A DNA stretch of 64,000 bases from Bryobacteraceae bacterium (GTDB lineage Bacteria; Acidobacteriota; Terriglobia; Bryobacterales; Bryobacteraceae), in assembly GCA_025055455.1 (NCBI GenBank), contig JANWXD010000002.1, forward strand, positions 133,808 through 197,807. Reading direction: 5' to 3'. Below, piece after piece: positions 16,384 to 27,579 of the stretch (its first letter is position 1; each line of letters opens with the position of its first letter). A program made the position numbers and the translations under genes. Under the pieces are notes generated by a model. The model was not told where the DNA came from, did not search any database, and was given only the letters and a program-made list of their open reading frames with translations.

Positions 16384-17193
16384 CTACTCGGCCAGCTCCG
16401 GCGGCGGCGGCAGGGTCACCGAGCCGGTGGCAGCCCACTCCGTTCCCCGCGTGAAGGTGGTCACGAACGTGGGCGTTCGGACCGCAGGCACATCGTGCCC
16501 CAAAGCCGTGACGAAGACCCGCCCCTTGCCGTAGTTCACGGTCCACAGCATCGGATGGTGCATCCCTGGGCCGGGCGTGGGCTGGCGGGCCTTGCCTTGA
16601 TAGAGGGAATGGTCGTCCCAGGCCGTGGCCAGCACGTGGTAGCTGCCTTCGGGCTGCCACTTCAAGTTGGCGTAGAGCTCGTCTTTGGTTTGGGGCAAGG
16701 ATTTTTTCAGGCCTCGGGTGATGGGATGGGCCGTGTCTTTGATCTCGACGACAAAATCATGTGGCGGGGAGTGATGGCCCTGATTGGGCCTCCAGTTGCC
16801 CCCGCAGAGCTTTTCGTATTCGCTCCAGCCGTCGAAAGCCGCCAGCGAAAAGTGATACACGACCAAACCCTTGCCGGAGCGGACGAAGTCCAGCAAAGCG
16901 TTTTGGGCGCGCTCGCCCCACCACAGCTCCGGCCGGCGGCGGTCGTAGTAGTTGAGAATCACCACGTCGTAGGGCGCCAGGGTTTCGGGACCCGCTCCGC
17001 GGAATTCCTCGGTGACACGCACCTCGAAGCGCCCCGTCTCCTCGAGGATTCTGCGAAGTTCGGGCGTCACGGCCCGCCAGTCGTGGACATTCTGTCCGGT
17101 GATGATCAGTGCTTGCAGTTTGCCGGGCGCCTGCTGGCCCGCAGCCAGCGCACCGAGCATGAGCCCCAGCCATGGCAGCTTGGCGAGTTTCAT
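16384..17193 (-). CDS. exported ThuA-like domain protein
   Basis: A 269-residue protein with a signal peptide (MKLAKLPWLGLMLGALAAGQ) and a ThuA (class I glutamine-amidotransferase-like) fold: ALIITGQNVHDWRAVTPELR, YDVVILNYYDRRRPELWWGE, GKGLVVYHFSLAAFDGW, ELYANLKWQ, GKGRVFVTALGHD. ThuA proteins occur with trehalose/sugar utilisation genes and many secreted versions exist in Acidobacteria and Planctomycetes; the biochemical role is not settled. ATG 17193 was chosen over an in-frame start 11 codons upstream because AGGAGG lies 8 nt before it. It is divergent from the his operon; TATAAT (17225-17230, minus strand) is its probable -10. Confidence 0.82.
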   Translation of the reverse strand: MKLAKLPWLGLMLGALAAGQQAPGKLQALIITGQNVHDWRAVTPELRRILEETGRFEVRVTEEFRGAGPETLAPYDVVILNYYDRRRPELWWGERAQNALLDFVRSGKGLVVYHFSLAAFDGWSEYEKLCGGNWRPNQGHHSPPHDFVVEIKDTAHPITRGLKKSLPQTKDELYANLKWQPEGSYHVLATAWDDHSLYQGKARQPTPGPGMHHPMLWTVNYGKGRVFVTALGHDVPAVRTPTFVTTFTRGTEWAATGSVTLPPPPELAE

Positions 17194-17251
17194 TCGAGCA
17201 TCCTCCTTGACGCGGCGGACTTGCATTATAACCCGGTTGCCCCATCGGGTT

Positions 17252-17260
17252 TGGTATACT
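17252..17260 (+). promoter_or_regulatory. extended -10 promoter of the his operon
   Basis: TGGTATACT is an extended -10 (TGnTATACT, hexamer 17255-17260). No consensus -35 lies 16-18 nt upstream, which extended -10 promoters tolerate. Transcription starting 6-8 nt downstream would place the leader ATG (17273) about 5-7 nt from the 5' end. Confidence 0.55.
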
Positions 17261-17272
17261 GTCGACTTCGCG

Positions 17273-17335
17273 ATGATGCTGCCCGCCGCAGTCCACCTTG
17301 GCCATCACCGGCGGATGCCGGAGGCGGCGGGCTGA
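17273..17335 (+). CDS. hisL: his operon leader peptide, His-rich
   Basis: A 20-codon open frame encodes MMLPAAVHLGHHRRMPEAAG then TGA. His codons occupy 17294-17296, 17303-17305 and 17306-17308: three His within five codons in a protein of 20. The frame lies between the his promoter and the first gene hisI, and its stop codon falls at the end of segment 2 of the attenuator described next. There is no Shine-Dalgarno sequence; with the promoter so close, translation may be leaderless. Function as a regulatory peptide is inferred from this arrangement. Confidence 0.75.
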   Translation: MMLPAAVHLGHHRRMPEAAG

Positions 17336-17393
17336 CTGCTGATCCATCCATTCCAAGTAATCGGGGAGAGGGCCCGCCGCCAATCCGGCGGGC
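17281..17393 (+). promoter_or_regulatory. transcription attenuator of the his operon (four alternating arms)
   Basis: Four 8-nt segments alternate: 1 GCCCGCCG (17281-17288), 2 CGGCGGGC (17325-17332), 3 GCCCGCCG (17372-17379), 4 CGGCGGGC (17386-17393). Arms 1:2, 2:3 and 3:4 can each pair perfectly. The His codons (17294-17308) lie just after segment 1. A ribosome stalled there for lack of His-tRNA would cover segment 1 and free 2 to pair with 3 (read-through). A ribosome reaching the stop at 17333-17335 would cover segment 2 and let 3:4 form the terminator. This is the logic of classical his/trp attenuation. The parts are seen in the sequence; the mechanism is inferred. Confidence 0.8.
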
Positions 17394-17397
17394 TTTT
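17372..17397 (+). terminator. rho-independent terminator within the his attenuator (3:4 hairpin)
   Basis: An 8-bp all-GC stem (17372-17379 with 17386-17393) has a 6-nt loop CCAATC and is followed by TTTTCTGTT. It lies 15 nt before the hisI start, so it would stop transcription before any structural gene when histidine is plentiful. Confidence 0.8.
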
Positions 17398-17412
17398 CTG
17401 TTGGTATTGCAG

Positions 17413-17796
17413 ATGAACGTGGATTTCGGAAAGCTGAGCGGGCTGGCCCCCGCAGTGGTGCAGGACTACGCTACGGGCCGGGTGCTGATGGTCGGCTTCA
17501 TGAACGAGGAGGCCTTCCGCCGGACCGTGGAAACCGGATACGCGACCTTCTACAGCCGGTCTCGGGGAATGTTGTGGACCAAAGGGGAAACCTCCGGCCA
17601 TCGGCTGCTGGTCAAGGAGATCGCCACGGACTGCGATCAGGACGCTTTGCTGCTACGAGTGGAACCGCTGGGTCCGGGGGTCTGCCACAACGGCTACCGG
17701 AGCTGTTTTTACCGGCGCCTCGAGGATGGGCGCTGGGTGGAGTTCGAGCCGCCCGTCTACGACCCGGAGGCTGTATACGGGAAGAAGCGACCATGA
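17413..17796 (+). CDS. hisI: phosphoribosyl-AMP cyclohydrolase
   Basis: A 127-residue stand-alone HisI catalysing step 3 of histidine synthesis (opening of PR-AMP). The signature residues are [29 protein letters not shown], the Mg-binding [11 protein letters not shown], and [13 protein letters not shown] with the zinc cysteines. There is no fused HisE domain and no hisE gene follows. ATG 17413 is the first structural start after the attenuator. No clear SD precedes it. Its stop overlaps hisG (ATGA). Confidence 0.95.
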
Positions 17797-18662
17797 CGCT
17801 GAAGCTCGGCATTCCCAAGGGAAGCCTCGAACAGGCCACGATCGACCTGTTTCGCCGGGCCGGCTTCCACATCACGACTGGAAGCCGTTCGTACTTTCCC
17901 GCCATCGACGATCCCGAGATCGAATGCATGCTCATCCGAGCCCAAGAGATGGCGCGCTACGTCGAAGACGGCGTGCTGGACGCCGGGCTCACCGGCCGAG
18001 ACTGGGTGGAGGAAACCGAGGCGCAGGTGGTCACGGTGGCGGACCTGATCTACGCCAAACAGAGCTTCGGCAAGGTGCGCTGGGTGCTTGCCGTGCCCGA
18101 GGGCTCGCCGTTTCAAAGCGTCACGGACCTGGAAGGCAAGATCATCGCCACCGAGCTCGTGCAGACCACGCGGCGCTATCTGGCCGCCCATAACGTCAAA
18201 GCCAAAGTCGAATTCAGTTGGGGCGCCACCGAGGTCAAACCCCCCGTGCTGGCCGACGCCATCGTGGAGGTGACGGAAACCGGTGCGTCGTTGCGCGCCA
18301 ACAAACTGCGCATCATCGACACGGTGCTCGAATCCAACACCCAGCTCATCGCCAACCGCGACGCCTGGCAAGATCCTTGGAAACGCCGCAAGCTGGAAGA
18401 CATCCGGATGCTGCTCGAAGGGGCCATGAACGCCCTGGGCAAAGTGGGCTTGATGCTCAACGTGCACAAAGATGATCTTCCCAAAGTGCTGGCGGTGCTG
18501 CCGGCGCTCAAAAAACCCACAGTTTCGCACTTGAGCGACGAGGACTGGCTGGCGGTCAATACGGTGCTCGACGAATCCACGGTGCGTCGCATCATTCCGC
18601 GCTTGAAAGAAGCCGGAGCCCAAGGCATCGTCGAGTATCCCTTGAACAAGATCGTGATGTAG
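17793..18662 (+). CDS. hisG: ATP phosphoribosyltransferase, long form
   Basis: A 289-residue HisG, first enzyme of the pathway. The N-terminal type-II periplasmic-binding-like catalytic domain ([60 protein letters not shown]) is followed by the ~75-residue C-terminal ACT-like domain (about 210-289) that binds histidine in long-form enzymes. Because it carries that domain, it should be feedback-inhibited directly and not need HisZ. It is translationally coupled to hisI by a 4-nt overlap. Confidence 0.95.
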
Positions 18663-18668
18663 CGGGCG

Positions 18669-19922
18669 ATGATCCGGATCTTGACATCGAAGGAGGCCGA
18701 AGGGCTGCTAGCCCGCCGGGGTGCTCGCCTGGCGGAGGCCGAGCGGGTCGTGGCGCCCATTTTGGAAGACGTCCGGCGGCGGGGCGATGCCGCCCTCATC
18801 GAATACGCCCGGCGGCTGGACGGGCTCGGGGACCGGCCGCTGGCGGTGTCGCGCCGCGAAATGGTGCAGGCCTGCGAGGAGGTGGGCGCGGCCTTCTTCT
18901 CGGCCTTGGATTCCGCCTATCGCAACATCCGCCGCTTCGCCGAGCGGCAGGTGCCGCAGGAGTTCTGGATCAAATTTCCGGACGGACACCGCGCGGGGCA
19001 GATCGTGCGGCCGCTCGACTCGGTGGCCGCCTACGTCCCTGGCGGCCGCTACCCGCTGCCTTCGACCCTGCTGATGACGGTGGTGCCGGCTCAGGCGGCC
19101 GGCGTGCGGCTGGTCACGGCCGCCTCCCCCAAGCCCGCCCGCGAGGTGCTGGCGACAGCGCATTTTCTGCGCCTGGAACGGATGTTCCGCGTGGGCGGGG
19201 CCCAAGCGATCGCGGCCTTCGCCTTCGGCACGGAGACCATCCCCCGGGCGGACCGGATCGTAGGGCCAGGTAACCTCTACGTGGCGGCCGCCAAGAAACT
19301 GTTGGCCGGCGAGGTGGCGATCGATTTCATCGCCGGGCCCACGGAAATCGTCATCGTGGCGGCGGACGGAGATCCTCGCCTGCTGGCGGCAGACCTATTG
19401 GCGCAGGCCGAACACGACGAGGAGGCGGCCGCGATTCTGCTCACGACGTCCCGGCGGCTGGCTCGCGCCGTGGCCCAAGAAATCGAACGCCAGCTGGCCA
19501 CGCTGCCCACGGCGCCCACGGCGCGCGCCGCCATCGAGCACCACGGCGCCATCGTGCTGGTGCGCAGTCTGGAGCAGGCCCTAGAGTTCGCTAACCGCTA
19601 CGCGCCAGAGCATCTCAGCCTTCCGGACCGGTCCCTGCTGGCAGGCGTGCGTCATGCCGGCAGCGTCTTCTTGGGCGCCTGCAGCCCGGAAGCAGCCGGC
19701 GATTACGCCTCCGGCCCGAACCATGTGCTTCCCACCTCGGGCTACGCCCGCATCCGCGGAGGTTTGTCGGCCGCCGATTTCGTCAAGGTCATCACGGTGC
19801 AGGAGCTGACCGCCGCCTCGCTGAAGCGCCTCGCGCCGGCGATCACGACCCTGGCGCGCGCGGAGGGACTCGAAGCTCATGCGCGTTCCGTGGAGGTGCG
19901 CTTGGATGAGCGAGCGCGTTGA
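18669..19922 (+). CDS. hisD: histidinol dehydrogenase
   Basis: A 417-residue HisD, which performs the last two NAD-dependent oxidations of the pathway. Recognisable blocks are YVPGGRYPLPSTLLM, GVRLVTAASPKP, VGGAQAIAAFAFGTETIPR, VGPGNLYVAAAKKLL, IDFIAGPTEIVIVAADGDP (zinc and substrate residues), LLAQAEHDEEAAA, YAPEHLSL and SGPNHVLPTSGYAR. It starts 6 nt after hisG; the start of hisC overlaps its last 17 nt. Confidence 0.95.
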   Translation: MIRILTSKEAEGLLARRGARLAEAERVVAPILEDVRRRGDAALIEYARRLDGLGDRPLAVSRREMVQACEEVGAAFFSALDSAYRNIRRFAERQVPQEFWIKFPDGHRAGQIVRPLDSVAAYVPGGRYPLPSTLLMTVVPAQAAGVRLVTAASPKPAREVLATAHFLRLERMFRVGGAQAIAAFAFGTETIPRADRIVGPGNLYVAAAKKLLAGEVAIDFIAGPTEIVIVAADGDPRLLAADLLAQAEHDEEAAAILLTTSRRLARAVAQEIERQLATLPTAPTARAAIEHHGAIVLVRSLEQALEFANRYAPEHLSLPDRSLLAGVRHAGSVFLGACSPEAAGDYASGPNHVLPTSGYARIRGGLSAADFVKVITVQELTAASLKRLAPAITTLARAEGLEAHARSVEVRLDERAR

Positions 19923-20985
19923 GGTGAAGCCGGCGGTGCTGGAACCGCGCGAGGCCATCCGCCGCATGGCGCCGTACACGCCCCCGACGGCGGGACGGGC
20001 CGGAAAACTGCGGCTGGATTTCAACGAGAACACGCTGGGCTGCTCGCCCCGCGTTGTGGAGTTCCTGCGGGCGCGGCTGAACGGCGAAATCCTAGCGGTC
20101 TACCCCGAATACGAGGAGGCCATTGGCGATCTGGCGGCTCATTTCGGTGTCGCTCCGGCGGAGCTTTTGCTCACCAACGGAACCGACGAAGCCATTCAGT
20201 TGGTCCTCCACACCTACGTCGACGCCGGCCAGGAGGTGCTGCTGTGCAAGCCCTCCTACGCCATGTACCGCTTCTACGCCGATGTGGCTGGGGCCGCAGT
20301 CCGGGAGATTCCCTACCGGCGTCAGGACCTGAGCTTTCCTTTGGACGAGCTTCTGGCAGCCCTCAGTGACCGCACGCGCGCCGTGTTGATCGCCAATCCG
20401 AACAACCCCACCGGCACCGGCGTGAGCCTGGAGGGTATCCGCCGCATCCTCGAGCGGGCCCCTCGAGCCGCCGTCCTCATCGACGAAGCGTACTACGAGT
20501 TCAACGGCGTCACCGCGCTCGATTTGCGGGCGGAAGCGCCCAATCTGTTCGTCAGCCGGACGTTTTCCAAGGTCTACGGCCTGGCGGGATTGCGGCTGGG
20601 CTGCGTGTTTTCCCAGGCGCCCAACATCGCGGCGTTGCACAAAGGCCAATCCCCTTACAGCGTCAACATCCTGGCCGCGTTGGCGGCGCGCGAGGCGGTC
20701 AAGGACCGGCAATACATCGAGGCATATGTACAGGAAGCCCTGGCCGCGCGGGCCTTGCTCTATGAGGGCCTGGAGCGCTTGGGCATCCGCTATTTCCCCA
20801 GCCAGGCGAACTTCGTGCTTTTCGATGCTGGCGCGCGCGCCGTCGAGATCCGGGATCGGCTGCGGCAGCGCGGCGTGCTGGTGCGCGACCGCAGCTACGA
20901 ACTGCCCGGCTGCCTCCGCGTCACCGTCGGCACGCGGGAGCAGATCCGCCGCTTCCTGGAAGCCCTGGAGGAGGTCTGGCGGTGA
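19906..20985 (+). CDS. hisC: histidinol-phosphate aminotransferase
   Basis: A 359-residue class II PLP aminotransferase. [49 protein letters not shown] and the PLP-lysine block [15 protein letters not shown] are present. ATG 19906 was chosen because GGAGG lies 9 nt upstream and it overlaps the end of hisD, as other genes of this operon do. The product is histidinol phosphate, the substrate for the phosphatase that the next gene may encode. Confidence 0.95.
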
Positions 20986-21662
20986 GCCGCGAAGTCTTGG
21001 TCTTCGACATGGACGGCGTGCTCGTCGACGTCACCGCCTCCTACGTCGAGACGATCCGCGCCACCGTGCGGCGCTTCACCGGCCGAGAGGTCTCCCACGA
21101 AGCGATTCAGGATCTGAAAAATGCGGGCGGGTGGAACAACGACTGGGATCTGACGCACAAACTCATCCGCGAGGCGGGCGTGGAGGTCGACTATGCCACG
21201 GTGGTCTCAGCCTTCCAGTCGCTGTTTCTCGGCTCCGACGGCGACGGCTGGATTCTCCGAGAGCGTTGGATCGCCCGGCCCGGCCTGCTCGAGGCCTTCG
21301 CAGCCCGCTACCGGCTGGCGATATTCACCGGCCGGCCGAACCGGGAAGCCCGGCTCACGCTCGACCGCTTCGCCGGCGCGGTGCGGTTCGACCCGCTCAT
21401 CGGCAGCGACGACGTCCGCCAGGGCAAGCCAGCGCCGGAAGGCCTGCTGCGGATCGCGGAACTGACCGAGGCCTCCGCCCTATGGTACGTGGGCGACACG
21501 GTGGACGATGCCCGCGCCGCCCGCGCGGCCCGGGTGCCCTTCATCGGCGTGGCCGCTCCGGGCAATCCGAGACGCGCCGAGCTCGAGTCCTTGTTGCGCG
21601 CCGAAGGGGCGATCGCGGTCGTCGAGGACATCAACGAGCTTCCGGAATGGCTGCCGGTATGA
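20982..21662 (+). CDS. HAD-family hydrolase, candidate histidinol-phosphate phosphatase
   Basis: A 226-residue HAD subfamily IA enzyme with motif [12 protein letters not shown], motif [11 protein letters not shown] (Thr), motif III Lys in [11 protein letters not shown], and motif [14 protein letters not shown]. It is GTGA-coupled to hisC and ATGA-coupled to hisB, placing it exactly at the HisC-HisD gap in the pathway. The HisB here is monofunctional (dehydratase only) and no PHP-type or inositol-monophosphatase-type histidinol phosphatase is present in the window. It is therefore the best candidate for the histidinol-phosphatase step. HAD proteins of this type are known near or fused to his genes in other organisms; activity here is inference. 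Confidence 0.8.
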
Positions 21663-22246
21663 GAACCGCTCGGATCGAGCGCCACACGACGGAGACCCAG
21701 ATCCGCGGGCGACTGAAGTTGGACGGACGCGGTCGCTACCGGATCGCCACCGGGATCCGGTTTCTGGATCACATGCTGGAGCTATTCGCTCGCCACGGCG
21801 CCTTCGATCTGGAGATAGAGGCGCGCGGCGATCTGGACGTGGACCAGCACCATACGGTCGAGGACACGGGCATCGTGCTCGGCCAGCTGTTTTCCCGCGC
21901 CCTCGGCGACCGCCGGGGCATCCACCGCGCCGGCTATTTCCTGATGCCGATGGACGAAACCTTGGCCGTGGCGGCGGTGGATCTGTCGGGCCGGCCCTGT
22001 CTGGTTTACGAAGACCGGTTGCGCGTGCGGAAGGTGGGGGACCTCGAGGCGGAGCTGCTCGAGGATTTCTTCCTGGGATTCGCCACCCACGCCGGGGCCA
22101 ACGTCCATTTGAAAATCCTCTACGGCCGTTCCAGCCATCATCAGGTCGAAGCGCTGTTCAAGTGCTTTGCGCGGGCCCTGCGTTTTGCCTGCTCGAAGGA
22201 CCGGAGCCTGCGGGGCCAGCTGCCCTCCACCAAGGGTTTGCTATGA
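21659..22246 (+). CDS. hisB: imidazoleglycerol-phosphate dehydratase
   Basis: A 195-residue monofunctional HisB. The manganese-binding His repeats are intact ([43 protein letters not shown]). It has the plant/most-bacteria length, without the N-terminal phosphatase of enterobacterial HisB. It is coupled to both neighbours by 4-nt overlaps. Confidence 0.95.
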
Positions 22247-22836
22247 TCGCGATCCTCGACTACGGGGCGGGCAACCTGCGCTCGGTCGAAAATGCGCTGG
22301 GGGCGATCGGGGCCGACTACGGATTGGCCCGTAGCCCGGCCGAGCTCGAGCGCGCCTCGAAAATCATCTTGCCGGGGGTGGGCCACTTCGGCCAGATGAT
22401 GCGGGCGCTCGAGGAGTTGGGCGTGCGCGCGACGTTGCTCGAACGGATCCGCGGGGGGGTACCGTTTCTGGGCATCTGCCTCGGTTTGCAGGCGCTGTTT
22501 TCGGCGAGCGAGGAGGCGCCCGAGGTGGCGGGCTTGGGTTTGTTGCCGGGCCTGGTGCGACGGTTTCCCTCTGAATTGCGCGTGCCGCATATGGGCTGGA
22601 ACCGGCTGGAGGTGCGCGACGGCGCGCGTCTGTGGGCCGGCGTCGGCGAGAAGCCTTACGTTTACTTCGCCCATAGCTACTATGCGCCGGTGATTGCCGA
22701 AACCGCCGCCACTTGCACCTACGGAGTGGCCTACACCGCGGCGCTCGAGGCGGGTCACGTCTTCGGCGTGCAGTTTCACCCGGAAAAATCCGGCCCCGTC
22801 GGTTTGCGCATCTTGCGCAACTTCGTCCAGCTGTAG
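22243..22836 (+). CDS. hisH: imidazole glycerol phosphate synthase, glutamine amidotransferase subunit
   Basis: A 197-residue class I glutaminase: [14 protein letters not shown] start, [10 protein letters not shown], nucleophile Cys in [11 protein letters not shown], and the His/Glu of the triad in VQFHPEKSG. It feeds ammonia to HisF, encoded 2 nt downstream. It overlaps hisB by 4 nt. Confidence 0.95.
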
Positions 22837-22838
22837 CC

Positions 22839-23597
22839 GTGCTGGCCAAGCGCATCATTCCGTGTCTGGACGTGACCGCAGGACGCGTGGTCAAAGGAGT
22901 CAACTTCGTGGACTTGCGCGATGCCGGGGATCCCGTCGAGCTGGCGGCCCGATACAACCAGCAGGGCGCCGACGAGCTGGTGTTTCTGGACATCACCGCC
23001 TCGAGCGACGACCGCGCCATCATGGCGGACGTGGTGGCGCGCACGGCACGAGAGGTGTTCATCCCACTCACGGTCGGCGGCGGCATCCGTTCCGTGGCCG
23101 ATGCGCGGCGCATCCTGATGGCGGGGGCCGACAAGGTGAGCGTCAACACCGCGGCCGTGCGTCGGCCGGAGCTAATCCGGGAGTTGAGTCGAGAGTTCGG
23201 CTCGCAGGCCGTCGTGCTCGCGATCGACGCCCGGCGCGTGGGCGAGCGCTGGCACGTCTATACGCGCGGAGGCCGGGTGGACGAGGGGATCGACGCCGTG
23301 GAATGGGCCGTGCAGGGCCAAGAGCTGGGCGCCGGAGAGATCCTGCTCACCTCCATGGATACCGATGGAGTGCGCCAGGGCTTCGATTGCGCCCTCACGC
23401 GAGCGGTCTCGCGCGCCACACGCATCCCCGTCATCGCCTCCGGCGGCGCCGGTCGGCCGGAGCACTTCCTGGAAGTCCTTACGGACGGCGAAGCCGATGC
23501 GGCCCTGGCCGCGTCGATCTTTCACTATGGCGTCTACACCGTGGGCGACCTCAAGGAATTCCTGGACCGGCATGGCATTCCGGTGAGGAAAACGTGA
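22839..23597 (+). CDS. hisF: imidazole glycerol phosphate synthase, cyclase subunit
   Basis: A 252-residue TIM barrel. The catalytic Asp are in [18 protein letters not shown] and [37 protein letters not shown] and [12 protein letters not shown] are phosphate-binding loops. GTG start at 22839, directly after the hisH stop. With HisH it makes imidazole glycerol phosphate and AICAR. Confidence 0.95.
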
Positions 23598-24325
23598 TTC
23601 TGCCGTGCATTGACCTGATGGGGGGCAAAGTCGTGCAGCTTGTCCAAGGGCGCAAGAAAGCCCTGGAGGCCGGCAGCCCCGCCGAGATGTTAGAGCGATT
23701 CGCAGCCTTCCCGGAGATCCAGGTCGTCGACCTGGATGCCGCCATGGGACGTGGCTCCAACGAGGAAGCCGTGGCCTTCTTGGCGGCGCGAGCGGCGGTG
23801 CGGGTTGGCGGCGGCATCCGCACGGTGGAGCGGGCGCGAACGCTGGTGGCGCAAGGCGCGCGCAAGGTGATCATCGGGACGGCGGCCTTTGGCTCGGACG
23901 GGATCAATCGTCCATTTCTCGAAGCGTTGGCTGCGGCCGTCACCCGCGAGCGTGTCATCGTCGCCTTAGATTCCTACCAGGGCCGCATCGTGGTGCGTGG
24001 TTGGCAAGAGGCGACCGCGCTCGAGGCCGAAGCGATCATCAGCGAGCTGGAGCCCTATTGTGGCGGCTTCCTGTGCACGTACGTTGACAAGGAGGGGATG
24101 CTGGAAGGCACGAATCTAGATTGGTTCCGACGGCTGCGCGCCGCCACTCGGCACGAGCTCACGGCTGCAGGGGGGATCACCACGCTCGAGGAGATTCGTG
24201 AGCTGGATCGGCTCGGCATTCACGCCGCACTGGGCATGGCGATTTACACCGGCCGGCTCGATCTGGAAGAGTTGGCTCGTTGGCAGGGGGCTTCGCGCGA
24301 TCGGGCGTGGGGCTATAGGCTGTAG
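23594..24325 (+). CDS. hisA: ProFAR isomerase (HisA), divergent
   Basis: A 243-residue TIM barrel with catalytic Asp in [15 protein letters not shown] and [11 protein letters not shown], plus phosphate loops RVGGGIRTV and TAAGGITT. It isomerises ProFAR to PRFAR. The usual bacterial T(D/E)IxxDG loop reads [11 protein letters not shown], with Glu (codon 24092-24094) where Asp is normal. Together with [10 protein letters not shown] this looks a little like the eukaryotic HIS6 type. It is GTGA-coupled to hisF and is the last gene of the operon. No terminator is evident before the dnaK promoter. Confidence 0.9.
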
Positions 24326-24458: not shown

Positions 24459-26372
<1,914 letters not shown>

Positions 26373-26427
26373 GCCACCGCGGGCGGCCCGTCCGGCACGG
26401 GAGCGGGCGGCCTGAGGCGCTCTCGGT

Positions 26428-27579
26428 ATGCCCACTGCCACGCAAGATTACTACCGCGTCCTGGGCGTCAGCCGTGACGCCAAGCCGGAGGAGATTCGCA
26501 AAGCGTATCGCCGGCTGGCGCGCAAGTATCACCCGGACTTGAACCCCGGCGACAAGTCGGCCGAGGAAAAATTCAAGCAGATCCAGGAAGCCTACGACGT
26601 CCTCTCCGACCCCCAGAAGCGCCAAATGTACGATCAGTACGGCTTCTACTCGGCGTCGGGCTTTCCGGGCGGGGAAGCGCGGCAGGAAGGACCGCGGGTG
26701 GACTTCGGCGGCTTCGATTTCTCCGACTTCTTCAACCAGGCCACCGGCGGGCGCTCCGCAGGTACCTCGGCGTTCCGCGATATCTTGAACCAGTTTTTCG
26801 GCCGCGGAGTCCGTCCGGAGGCGGCGCCGAAGCCCGAAAAAGGCAGTGACCTCGAATATGCCGTAAATATCGACTTCTGGCAGGCGATTCGGGGAACACA
26901 GGTGCGGCTCAACGTGACGCGGCAGGACGCCTGCGCCTCCTGCGGCGGAACTGGGCGCATGGGCACGCAGTCCATCGTATGTCCGGAGTGCGGCGGATCC
27001 GGCAACGTGACCCAGGTGGCTGGAGTGATGCGCTTTAGCCTCCCCTGCCCGCGCTGCGGAGGTCAGGGTACGCTGCGCAATGCCTGCCCGGCCTGCCATG
27101 GCGACGGGCGGATCGCCCGAACCGAAACCGTGGAGGTGCGCATCCCGGCCGGCGTCAAGACGGGGGACCGGTTGCGCGTCGCCGGCAAAGGCAACGCCGG
27201 CACCTACGGAGCGCCGCCCGGCGATCTCTACATCACCGTACGTGTCGAGCCACACCCGTTCTTTCACCGGGAGGGCGATGACATCCACATCCAGGTGCCG
27301 GTGACGGTGACCGAAGCGGCCTTGGGGGCCAAGATCGAAGTCCCCACCATTGACGGCCGCGCCTTGCTCAAGGTGCCCATGGGGACCCAGAGCGGACAGA
27401 AGTTCCGCATGCGGGAAAAAGGGGTCTACAATTCCCGCAAAGGCACGCGCGGGGACCAAATTGTGGAGATCATCGTGCAGCCTCCGAAAGTCCGCGACGA
27501 GCGCACTAAGGAGATTCTGCGGGAACTGGCCGTGCTCAATCCGGAAGACCCCCGGGCGGAAATCTGGTCGAAGGTGTAG
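26428..27579 (+). CDS. dnaJ: chaperone protein DnaJ (Hsp40)
   Basis: A 383-residue type I DnaJ. J-domain residues 5-70 with HPD in [12 protein letters not shown], a short Gly/Phe region (~72-115), four CxxCxGxG zinc motifs ([32 protein letters not shown]; about 170-230), then the two beta-barrel substrate domains. It stimulates the DnaK ATPase and binds unfolded proteins. It lies 55 nt after dnaK and one base before hspR, in one operon. Confidence 0.97.

Follow-up and report, generated by a model that had tools for sequence, protein, structure and literature searches.

The region between positions 17252 and 17397 of the window (the whole stretch of 64,000 nucleotides that was analysed) is very likely a histidine-responsive, ribosome-mediated transcription attenuator placed before a his operon. 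A promoter, a short open reading frame (ORF) with His codons, four complementary arms, a terminator and the operon itself are all present, and the arrangement is conserved among relatives. This reading is the best supported of those considered, and the element is more widespread than the original prediction assumed. As judged from the sequences, the switch very probably lets these bacteria express their his genes only under histidine shortage, and does so across much of the phylum.

Start site, translation, stalling and read-through would combine as follows. RNA polymerase would start a few nucleotides upstream of, or at, the leader ATG, and a ribosome would initiate on the (nearly) leaderless 5' end and trail the polymerase. 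With ample His-tRNA this ribosome would reach the stop codon (17333-17335) and cover arm 2, upon which arms 3 and 4 would form the terminator and transcription would end near 17397. When His-tRNA is scarce, a stall at 17294-17308 would cover arm 1; arm 2 would then pair with arm 3, no terminator would form and the genes from hisI to hisA would be transcribed. Without translation, helices 1:2 and 3:4 would both form and transcription would end as well.

Leader region and operon in the window

All features lie on the forward strand unless stated otherwise. The leader is preceded by an extended -10 promoter element (TGGTATACT, 17252-17260) without a good -35 box. A generic sigma-70 promoter scan reported no site at the leader; it demands a -35 box, and the promoter here is of the extended -10 type. 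The leader peptide ORF (MMLPAAVHLGHHRRMPEAAG, 20 codons, 17273-17335) begins with an ATG at 17273, 12 nt past the -10, has a second in-frame ATG at 17276 and lacks a Shine-Dalgarno (SD) sequence. Its control His codons are codons 8, 11 and 12 (17294-17296, 17303-17305 and 17306-17308), at the place where relatives are His-dense. Repeat search and leader alignment define arm 1 (GCCCGCCGC, 17281-17289), arm 2 (GGCGGCGGGC, 17323-17332), which comprises the last leader codons and abuts the stop, arm 3 (GCCCGCCGCC, 17372-17381) and, with folding as additional evidence, arm 4 (CGGCGGGC, 17386-17393), which makes up the terminator stem with arm 3. A T-tract (TTTT, 17394-17397) completes the predicted intrinsic terminator. 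The ORF with its His codons thus lies between promoter and hisI, and the terminator between ORF and hisI. The extended -10, the 20-codon frame, the three His in five positions and the TTTT had been predicted earlier and agree base for base.

Perfect repeats connect arms 1 and 2 (9 nt, 17281-17289/17324-17332), arms 2 and 3 (10 nt, 17323-17332/17372-17381) and arms 3 and 4 (8 nt, 17372-17379/17386-17393); a repeat of 8 nt also links arms 1 and 4 (17281-17288/17386-17393). The claim that all arms are a single 8-mer or its complement holds for these repeats, but not for the aligned relatives, where the arms differ (arm 2 consensus CGACGGGC). When the 260 nt before hisI were shuffled 5000 times with dinucleotide composition kept, 7 shuffles scored at least as high as the window for promoter plus His, and 37 held an ORF with at least three His in eight residues. 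The full 64 kb was also scanned on both strands for short ORFs of that His density with a terminator no more than 90 nt behind them; the leader site was the sole match. The terminator (17366-17400) folds at -21.5 kcal/mol with a z-score of -3.36. Scores are only -1.41 for the 1:2 segment alone, -1.53 for the 2:3 segment alone and -1.05 for the whole leader, so that folding energy would by itself prove none of these; as sole proof of the leader it was rejected.

The operon runs hisI-G-D-C-HAD-B-H-F-A. Its first gene, hisI, spans 17413-17796 (NF000768, 149.9 bits, above cut-off). The open frame with hisG (TIGR00070, TIGR03455) covers 17574-18662, and the true start is placed near 17790 because the profile match begins at residue 76 of the frame. 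It is followed by hisD (18669-19922, TIGR00069) and by a hisC frame with an approximate start (19879-20985, TIGR01141). Between hisC and hisB lies a HAD-type hydrolase (20982-21662; PF00702; TIGR01548 at 127.5 bits, below the cut-off of 140.2), which may supply the operon's histidinol-phosphate phosphatase. The remaining genes are contained in longer open frames: hisB in 20726-22246 (residues 312-506 matched; NF002111, 250.2 bits, above cut-off), hisH in 21508-22836 (residues 247-441; TIGR01855), hisF in 22713-23597 (residues 44-292; TIGR00735) and hisA in 22694-24325 (residues 302-526; TIGR00007, 173.7 bits, below the cut-off of 228.95). No match to HisE (TIGR03188) was obtained at E <= 0.001 across the genome of the window (98.75% complete), against 13 of 14 control genomes in which HisE is present, and for this reason we refrain from calling the operon complete. 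Something other than HisE may take over the phosphoribosyl-ATP pyrophosphatase step, or hisE may sit in an assembly gap. On the reverse strand, upstream of the leader, a divergent gene of the ThuA family has its start at 17226. Downstream of the operon dnaK and dnaJ are found (24459-27579; PF00012, PF00226).

Distribution among Acidobacteriota

Relatives were collected by scanning genome contigs for HisI, and the best 80 of 194 confirmed loci were used; within these, the nearest matches to the window are Bryobacterales and other Acidobacteriota records. A strict rule, demanding at least four His in eight residues plus a terminator, gives a match within 140 nt before hisI in 77 of these best 80 loci, and one match elsewhere in the 332,518 bases (both strands) of their DNA. 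The exceptions are L016, L043 and L057, of which L043 is taken for a decayed or misread leader. When the window is added to the best 80, at least three His in eight residues are seen in 80/81 leaders, and at least four in 77/81 real upstream regions against 0/1620 shuffled ones. The His count is 4 to 9 in 79 of the 81 (examples of relatives are MRNLSVARHHHHHRAQFARRADC, MQVCAVALHHHHHHSKPHRAAG and MFVARHHHLHHGHIGHDLPRRAHS); one leader has a single His and the window has three. The copy in the window is therefore an outlier inside a clear leader family, with fewer His than nearly all relatives. When the leader together with the start of hisI served as a DNA query, 99 of 200 genomes of the family gave a match. 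Fifteen of these matches were used as loci, one being that of the window; each of the 14 others has 4 to 7 His in a leader-like frame, which in L289 is only a 13-codon GTG frame.

The phylum sample comprised 396 genomes, and HisI was found in 247 of them. For the wider comparison we assembled 170 hisI upstream regions: the window, the 80 loci and 89 regions from the phylum sample (29 plus 60 fetched), which are not a random draw since they were hand-picked among listed places. A His-dense short ORF occurs in 134 of the 170, families other than that of the window included, and 132 of these 134 also have the terminator; in L097 and L101 the ORF is present and the hairpin with T-rich tail is absent. 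In 32 (L043 included) of the 36 regions without a His leader, an open frame of 97 codons or more reaches hisI or ends within 106 nt of it. These frames fit the idea that hisI is not the first gene of the operon there, and in G+C-rich DNA some of them may arise by chance. The other four are L084, at a contig edge, L138, L141 and L150. In 20 cases, 19 from genomes among the 36 plus genome G205, a longer stretch before hisI (6.5 to 12.6 kb) was inspected. No His leader was seen in 19 of these stretches; the remaining one (L269) has a leader with at least four His in eight residues before hisG, which is followed by hisD. The element thus seems tied to the head of the his operon rather than to hisI itself.

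Below, leaders of L001-L086 and the window are called Bryobacterales-type, a label given by HisI similarity, and f2, f16, f25 and the like are anonymous family labels of the phylum sample. L082 and L083 duplicate L056 and L063; they are left out of the sets of 82 leaders and kept in those of 84. Nine leaders lacked a common anchor.

Start of the leader transcript

The distance from the last base of a -10 box (TA...T) to the leader start is 7-12 nt in 81/84 Bryobacterales-type leaders and 43/50 others, compared to 62/1680 and 39/1000 at random positions. In 67 of 81 loci the box lies 8-9 nt before the start. An extended TG accompanies it in 74/84 Bryobacterales-type leaders, and a TTGACA-like -35 is found in 36/50 leaders of other families. 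SD-like words before the leader start are nearly absent (2/80 and 0/50), in line with the earlier suggestion that the leader may be translated without an SD; the ORF of the window lacks one as well. From the spacing and the near absence of SD words, the transcript probably begins within a few nucleotides of the start codon. The leader mRNA would then probably be (nearly) leaderless; in the window the spacing is 12 nt.

Whether leaderless genes are a general habit of this genome was considered and set aside, as the excess is weak: TATACT-N7-10-ATG occurs 19 times (8 in a read-backwards control) and the N17-20 variant 13 times (control 8). For Acidobacteria, one survey predicts an average of 13.3% leaderless genes across three genomes (PMC3160421).

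Arm pairing and ribosome position

We aligned the 82 Bryobacterales-type leaders with MAFFT without using structure, and slid the pairs by 1-3 columns as controls. (Counting pairs on arms chosen for best pairing was rejected as circular.) Helix 3:4 is paired in 97.4% of cells, 2:3 in 79.4% and 1:2 in 72.4%, against at best 50.3%, 45.1% and 52.4% in the respective slid controls. Double-sided changes number 19 cells for 1:2 (3-27 when slid), 10 for 2:3 (6-14) and 3 for 3:4 (0-3). As these are not clearly above the controls, we consider the pairing conserved and do not claim strong covariation. The expectation that an alignment would reveal conserved His codons and co-varying arms is hence borne out for the codons and for lasting complementarity, but not clearly for double changes.

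Compensatory double changes do occur: the pair 17286-17327 is T-A in 18 leaders and C-G in 8, and arm 3 has C in nearly all. Since arm 1 follows arm 2 here and arm 3 stays C, helix 1:2 appears to be kept for its own sake. At 17327/17377, 46 of the 82 leaders have an A.C mismatch in helix 2:3 that is absent from the window, which suggests that 2:3 is tuned weaker. Against shuffles (p<=0.05), 2:3 stands out in 46/82 Bryobacterales-type leaders, 15/20 leaders of family f2 and 10/28 of other families; for 1:2 the counts are 21/82, 4/20 and 2/28, giving this helix little support outside the Bryobacterales type. The arms of f2 also differ, for instance GTCAGCGG/CCGCTGAC. As a side observation, a purine box resembling GGAAAGGA (consensus AAGGA) often precedes arm 3 in Bryobacterales-type leaders (L001-L080).

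The footprint of a ribosome reaches from about 15 nt before to 17 nt past the first base of the P-site codon. By this arithmetic, a ribosome whose A site holds a His codon of the window masks all or part of arm 1 and leaves arm 2 free, whereas one at the stop codon masks arm 2. In nearly all leaders a stall at the His run leaves arm 2 free and arm 1 covered, but the choice of search regions already fixes these two figures to a large extent. Once at the stop codon, the ribosome covers at least half of arm 2 in 81/82 Bryobacterales-type leaders, 6/20 of f2 and 16/28 others. In the window and the Bryobacterales-type leaders, then, the antiterminator is predicted to exclude the terminator, with arm 2 masked at the stop. 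In f2 (L087-L089, L106, L110, L119, L120, L124-L128, L130, L134, L136 and L164-L168) arm 2 lies close behind the His run, and in 14 of the 20 leaders less than half of it is covered by the terminating ribosome. The logic of E. coli-type his attenuation, as originally proposed, fits the parts, geometry and conservation seen in the window and its clade, but it carries over less well to other families, where 1:2 is weak and arm 2 of f2 is mostly uncovered; f2 would fit only if something further is assumed, for instance that a ribosome in the linker hinders 2:3.

In folds of the free RNA of the window with the ribosome at His8, the one with 2:3 is preferred over that with 3:4 (-45.4 against -41.7 kcal/mol), at His11 likewise (-38.4 against -37.6 kcal/mol), and at the stop 3:4 folds. 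At His12, by contrast, 3:4 is better by 2.2 kcal/mol. For the naked leader two best folds tie at -59.9 kcal/mol, one having 1:2 with 3:4 and the other 1:4 around 2:3. If arm 1 takes no part, equilibrium folding favours 3:4 in most of 132 leaders (median difference 3.9 kcal/mol) and 2:3 in 27. The folding check called for earlier thus agrees with the proposal at His8, His11 and the stop, but not at His12 or in most leaders. Given that equilibrium mostly favours the terminator, antitermination would depend on the order in which the arms are synthesized.

Alternative explanations

The evidence on helix 1:2 bears on a two-state switch without arm 1, in which only the position of the ribosome on arm 2 or on the 2-3 linker matters and 1:2 is incidental. 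Such a switch would be in line with the few leaders in which 1:2 is significant (21/82, 4/20 in f2, 2/28 in others) and with the f2 leaders whose arm 2 is mostly outside the footprint of the terminating ribosome (14/20). We regard it as rather unlikely: in Bryobacterales-type leaders 1:2 is paired well above its slid controls (72.4% against at most 52.4%), and at 17286-17327 changes in arm 2 are accompanied by changes in arm 1 in spite of the nearly constant C of arm 3.

It is very improbable that control acts instead on translation of hisI, or by reinitiation after the leader, with a hairpin that does not terminate transcription in vivo. In 132/134 leaders the stem has a T-rich tail as defined by the search itself, and the distance from hairpin to hisI spans 4 to 187 nt overall. 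It is true that 57/84 Bryobacterales-type leaders have 13-25 nt between the hairpin end and hisI and that an SD before hisI is rare (7/80; 13/50 in other families); in those other families, however, only 5 of 48 leaders show the 13-25 nt distance. From leader stop to hisI there are 61-123 nt in Bryobacterales-type leaders and 64-257 nt in others, which is probably too far for simple reinitiation. Least credit is given to the idea that the ORF makes a functional His-rich small protein, for instance a metal-binding one, with the terminator merely marking the end of its gene; this we consider extremely improbable. Peptides with His runs do bind metals, and the position of the ORF is conserved, yet outside the His run the ORFs differ greatly in length and sequence, and in Bryobacterales-type leaders the position of arm 2 with respect to the stop codon is preserved. 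Moreover, the element stands before hisI, or before hisG where that gene comes first, and just one other such unit occurs in 332 kb. We retain attenuation by a translated His leader as the preferred reading.

Comparison with known attenuators

The closest known system is hisL of enterobacteria (Rfam His_leader), which shares with the window a short ORF with His codons, alternative hairpins, an intrinsic terminator and a his operon downstream. The hisL ORF is preceded by an SD and has seven His control codons; the leader in the window starts almost at its promoter without an SD and has only three. Its operon also begins with hisI, that of hisL with hisG. At gathering score no Rfam family, His_leader included, was found in the whole window or in 20 related loci. 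No T-box was detected at gathering score in the window, nor in a permissive scan of 16900-17800. Permissive Rfam matches, all below gathering, were treated as chance: chrB-b (opposite strand, E 0.017), Thr_leader (15.9 bits, over the terminator) and four others. By analogy, the His leader would work like hisL attenuation but without an Rfam match, and may be seen as a new, lineage-wide case of a known attenuation type.

PMC9413887 describes leader-peptide His attenuators from both Proteobacteria and Firmicutes; those of Firmicutes comprise 17 species, among them the Bacillus cereus group, five Eubacteriales and six Erysipelotrichales species. Like the window, they have a predicted His-leader peptide, an antiterminator and a terminator before his operons. 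As far as descriptions can be compared, they differ in phylum and in extent (17 species, against 77 of the best 80 of 194 hisI loci here). A comparative study by Lopatovskaya and others (2010; doi 10.1134/S0026893310010164), as summarized in PMC4833913, lists His attenuators for gamma-proteobacterial hisG and Firmicute hisZ. Other amino-acid attenuators are described for Actinobacteria in PMC1262725. A 2010 survey (PMC2965389) reports that attenuators predicted in phyla such as Acidobacteria are almost all without associated functions. The titles, abstract openings and passages covered by the literature search, with subscription papers mostly beyond its reach, yielded no report of a his leader peptide in Acidobacteria.

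Precedents for a leaderless start do exist. The leader-peptide transcript of trpL in Sinorhizobium meliloti starts at its ATG (PMC7298713), and leaderless-mRNA initiation is discussed for ilvBNC of Corynebacterium glutamicum (PMC11857589). As described, both differ from the His leader in amino acid and phylum. The probable leaderless-type start is thus notable, not unprecedented.

Implications and candidate ilv leaders

More than 130 leaders are now at hand for comparing the spacing of ribosome, stop codon and hairpins, and they form a natural set for attenuation with translation starting at the 5' end without an SD. Bryobacterales bacterium F-183 (L079) and strain KBS 96 (L080) are not marked as metagenome-assembled genomes; they are probably cultured, and would make testable hosts. 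It is possible, and put forward here only tentatively, that leaderless-transcript leader-peptide attenuation is an old and general form of amino-acid control in Acidobacteriota (his, probably ilv). It would come in two geometries, with the terminating ribosome either covering arm 2 (Bryobacterales-type) or blocking the antiterminator from the 2-3 linker (f2, another family of the class).

Other amino-acid operons were inspected in the fetched loci. By eye no convincing Trp-rich leader was found at trpE, where a few frames contain Trp, and no convincing Leu-rich leader at leuA. The ilvB leader is probably a second leader-peptide attenuator. Short Ile/Val/Leu-rich ORFs stand before ilvB, such as one with ...VSVIVLIIILVGVTVV in the genome of the window (L221, G000:C22, reverse strand), and 9 of the 18 listed ilvB loci reach 7 Ile/Val/Leu residues out of 10 (L221, L222, L225, L226, L227 and L229-L232). 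A GGCC-type hairpin with a T-tract follows the ORF in L221 and L222, and by eye also in L225 and L226.
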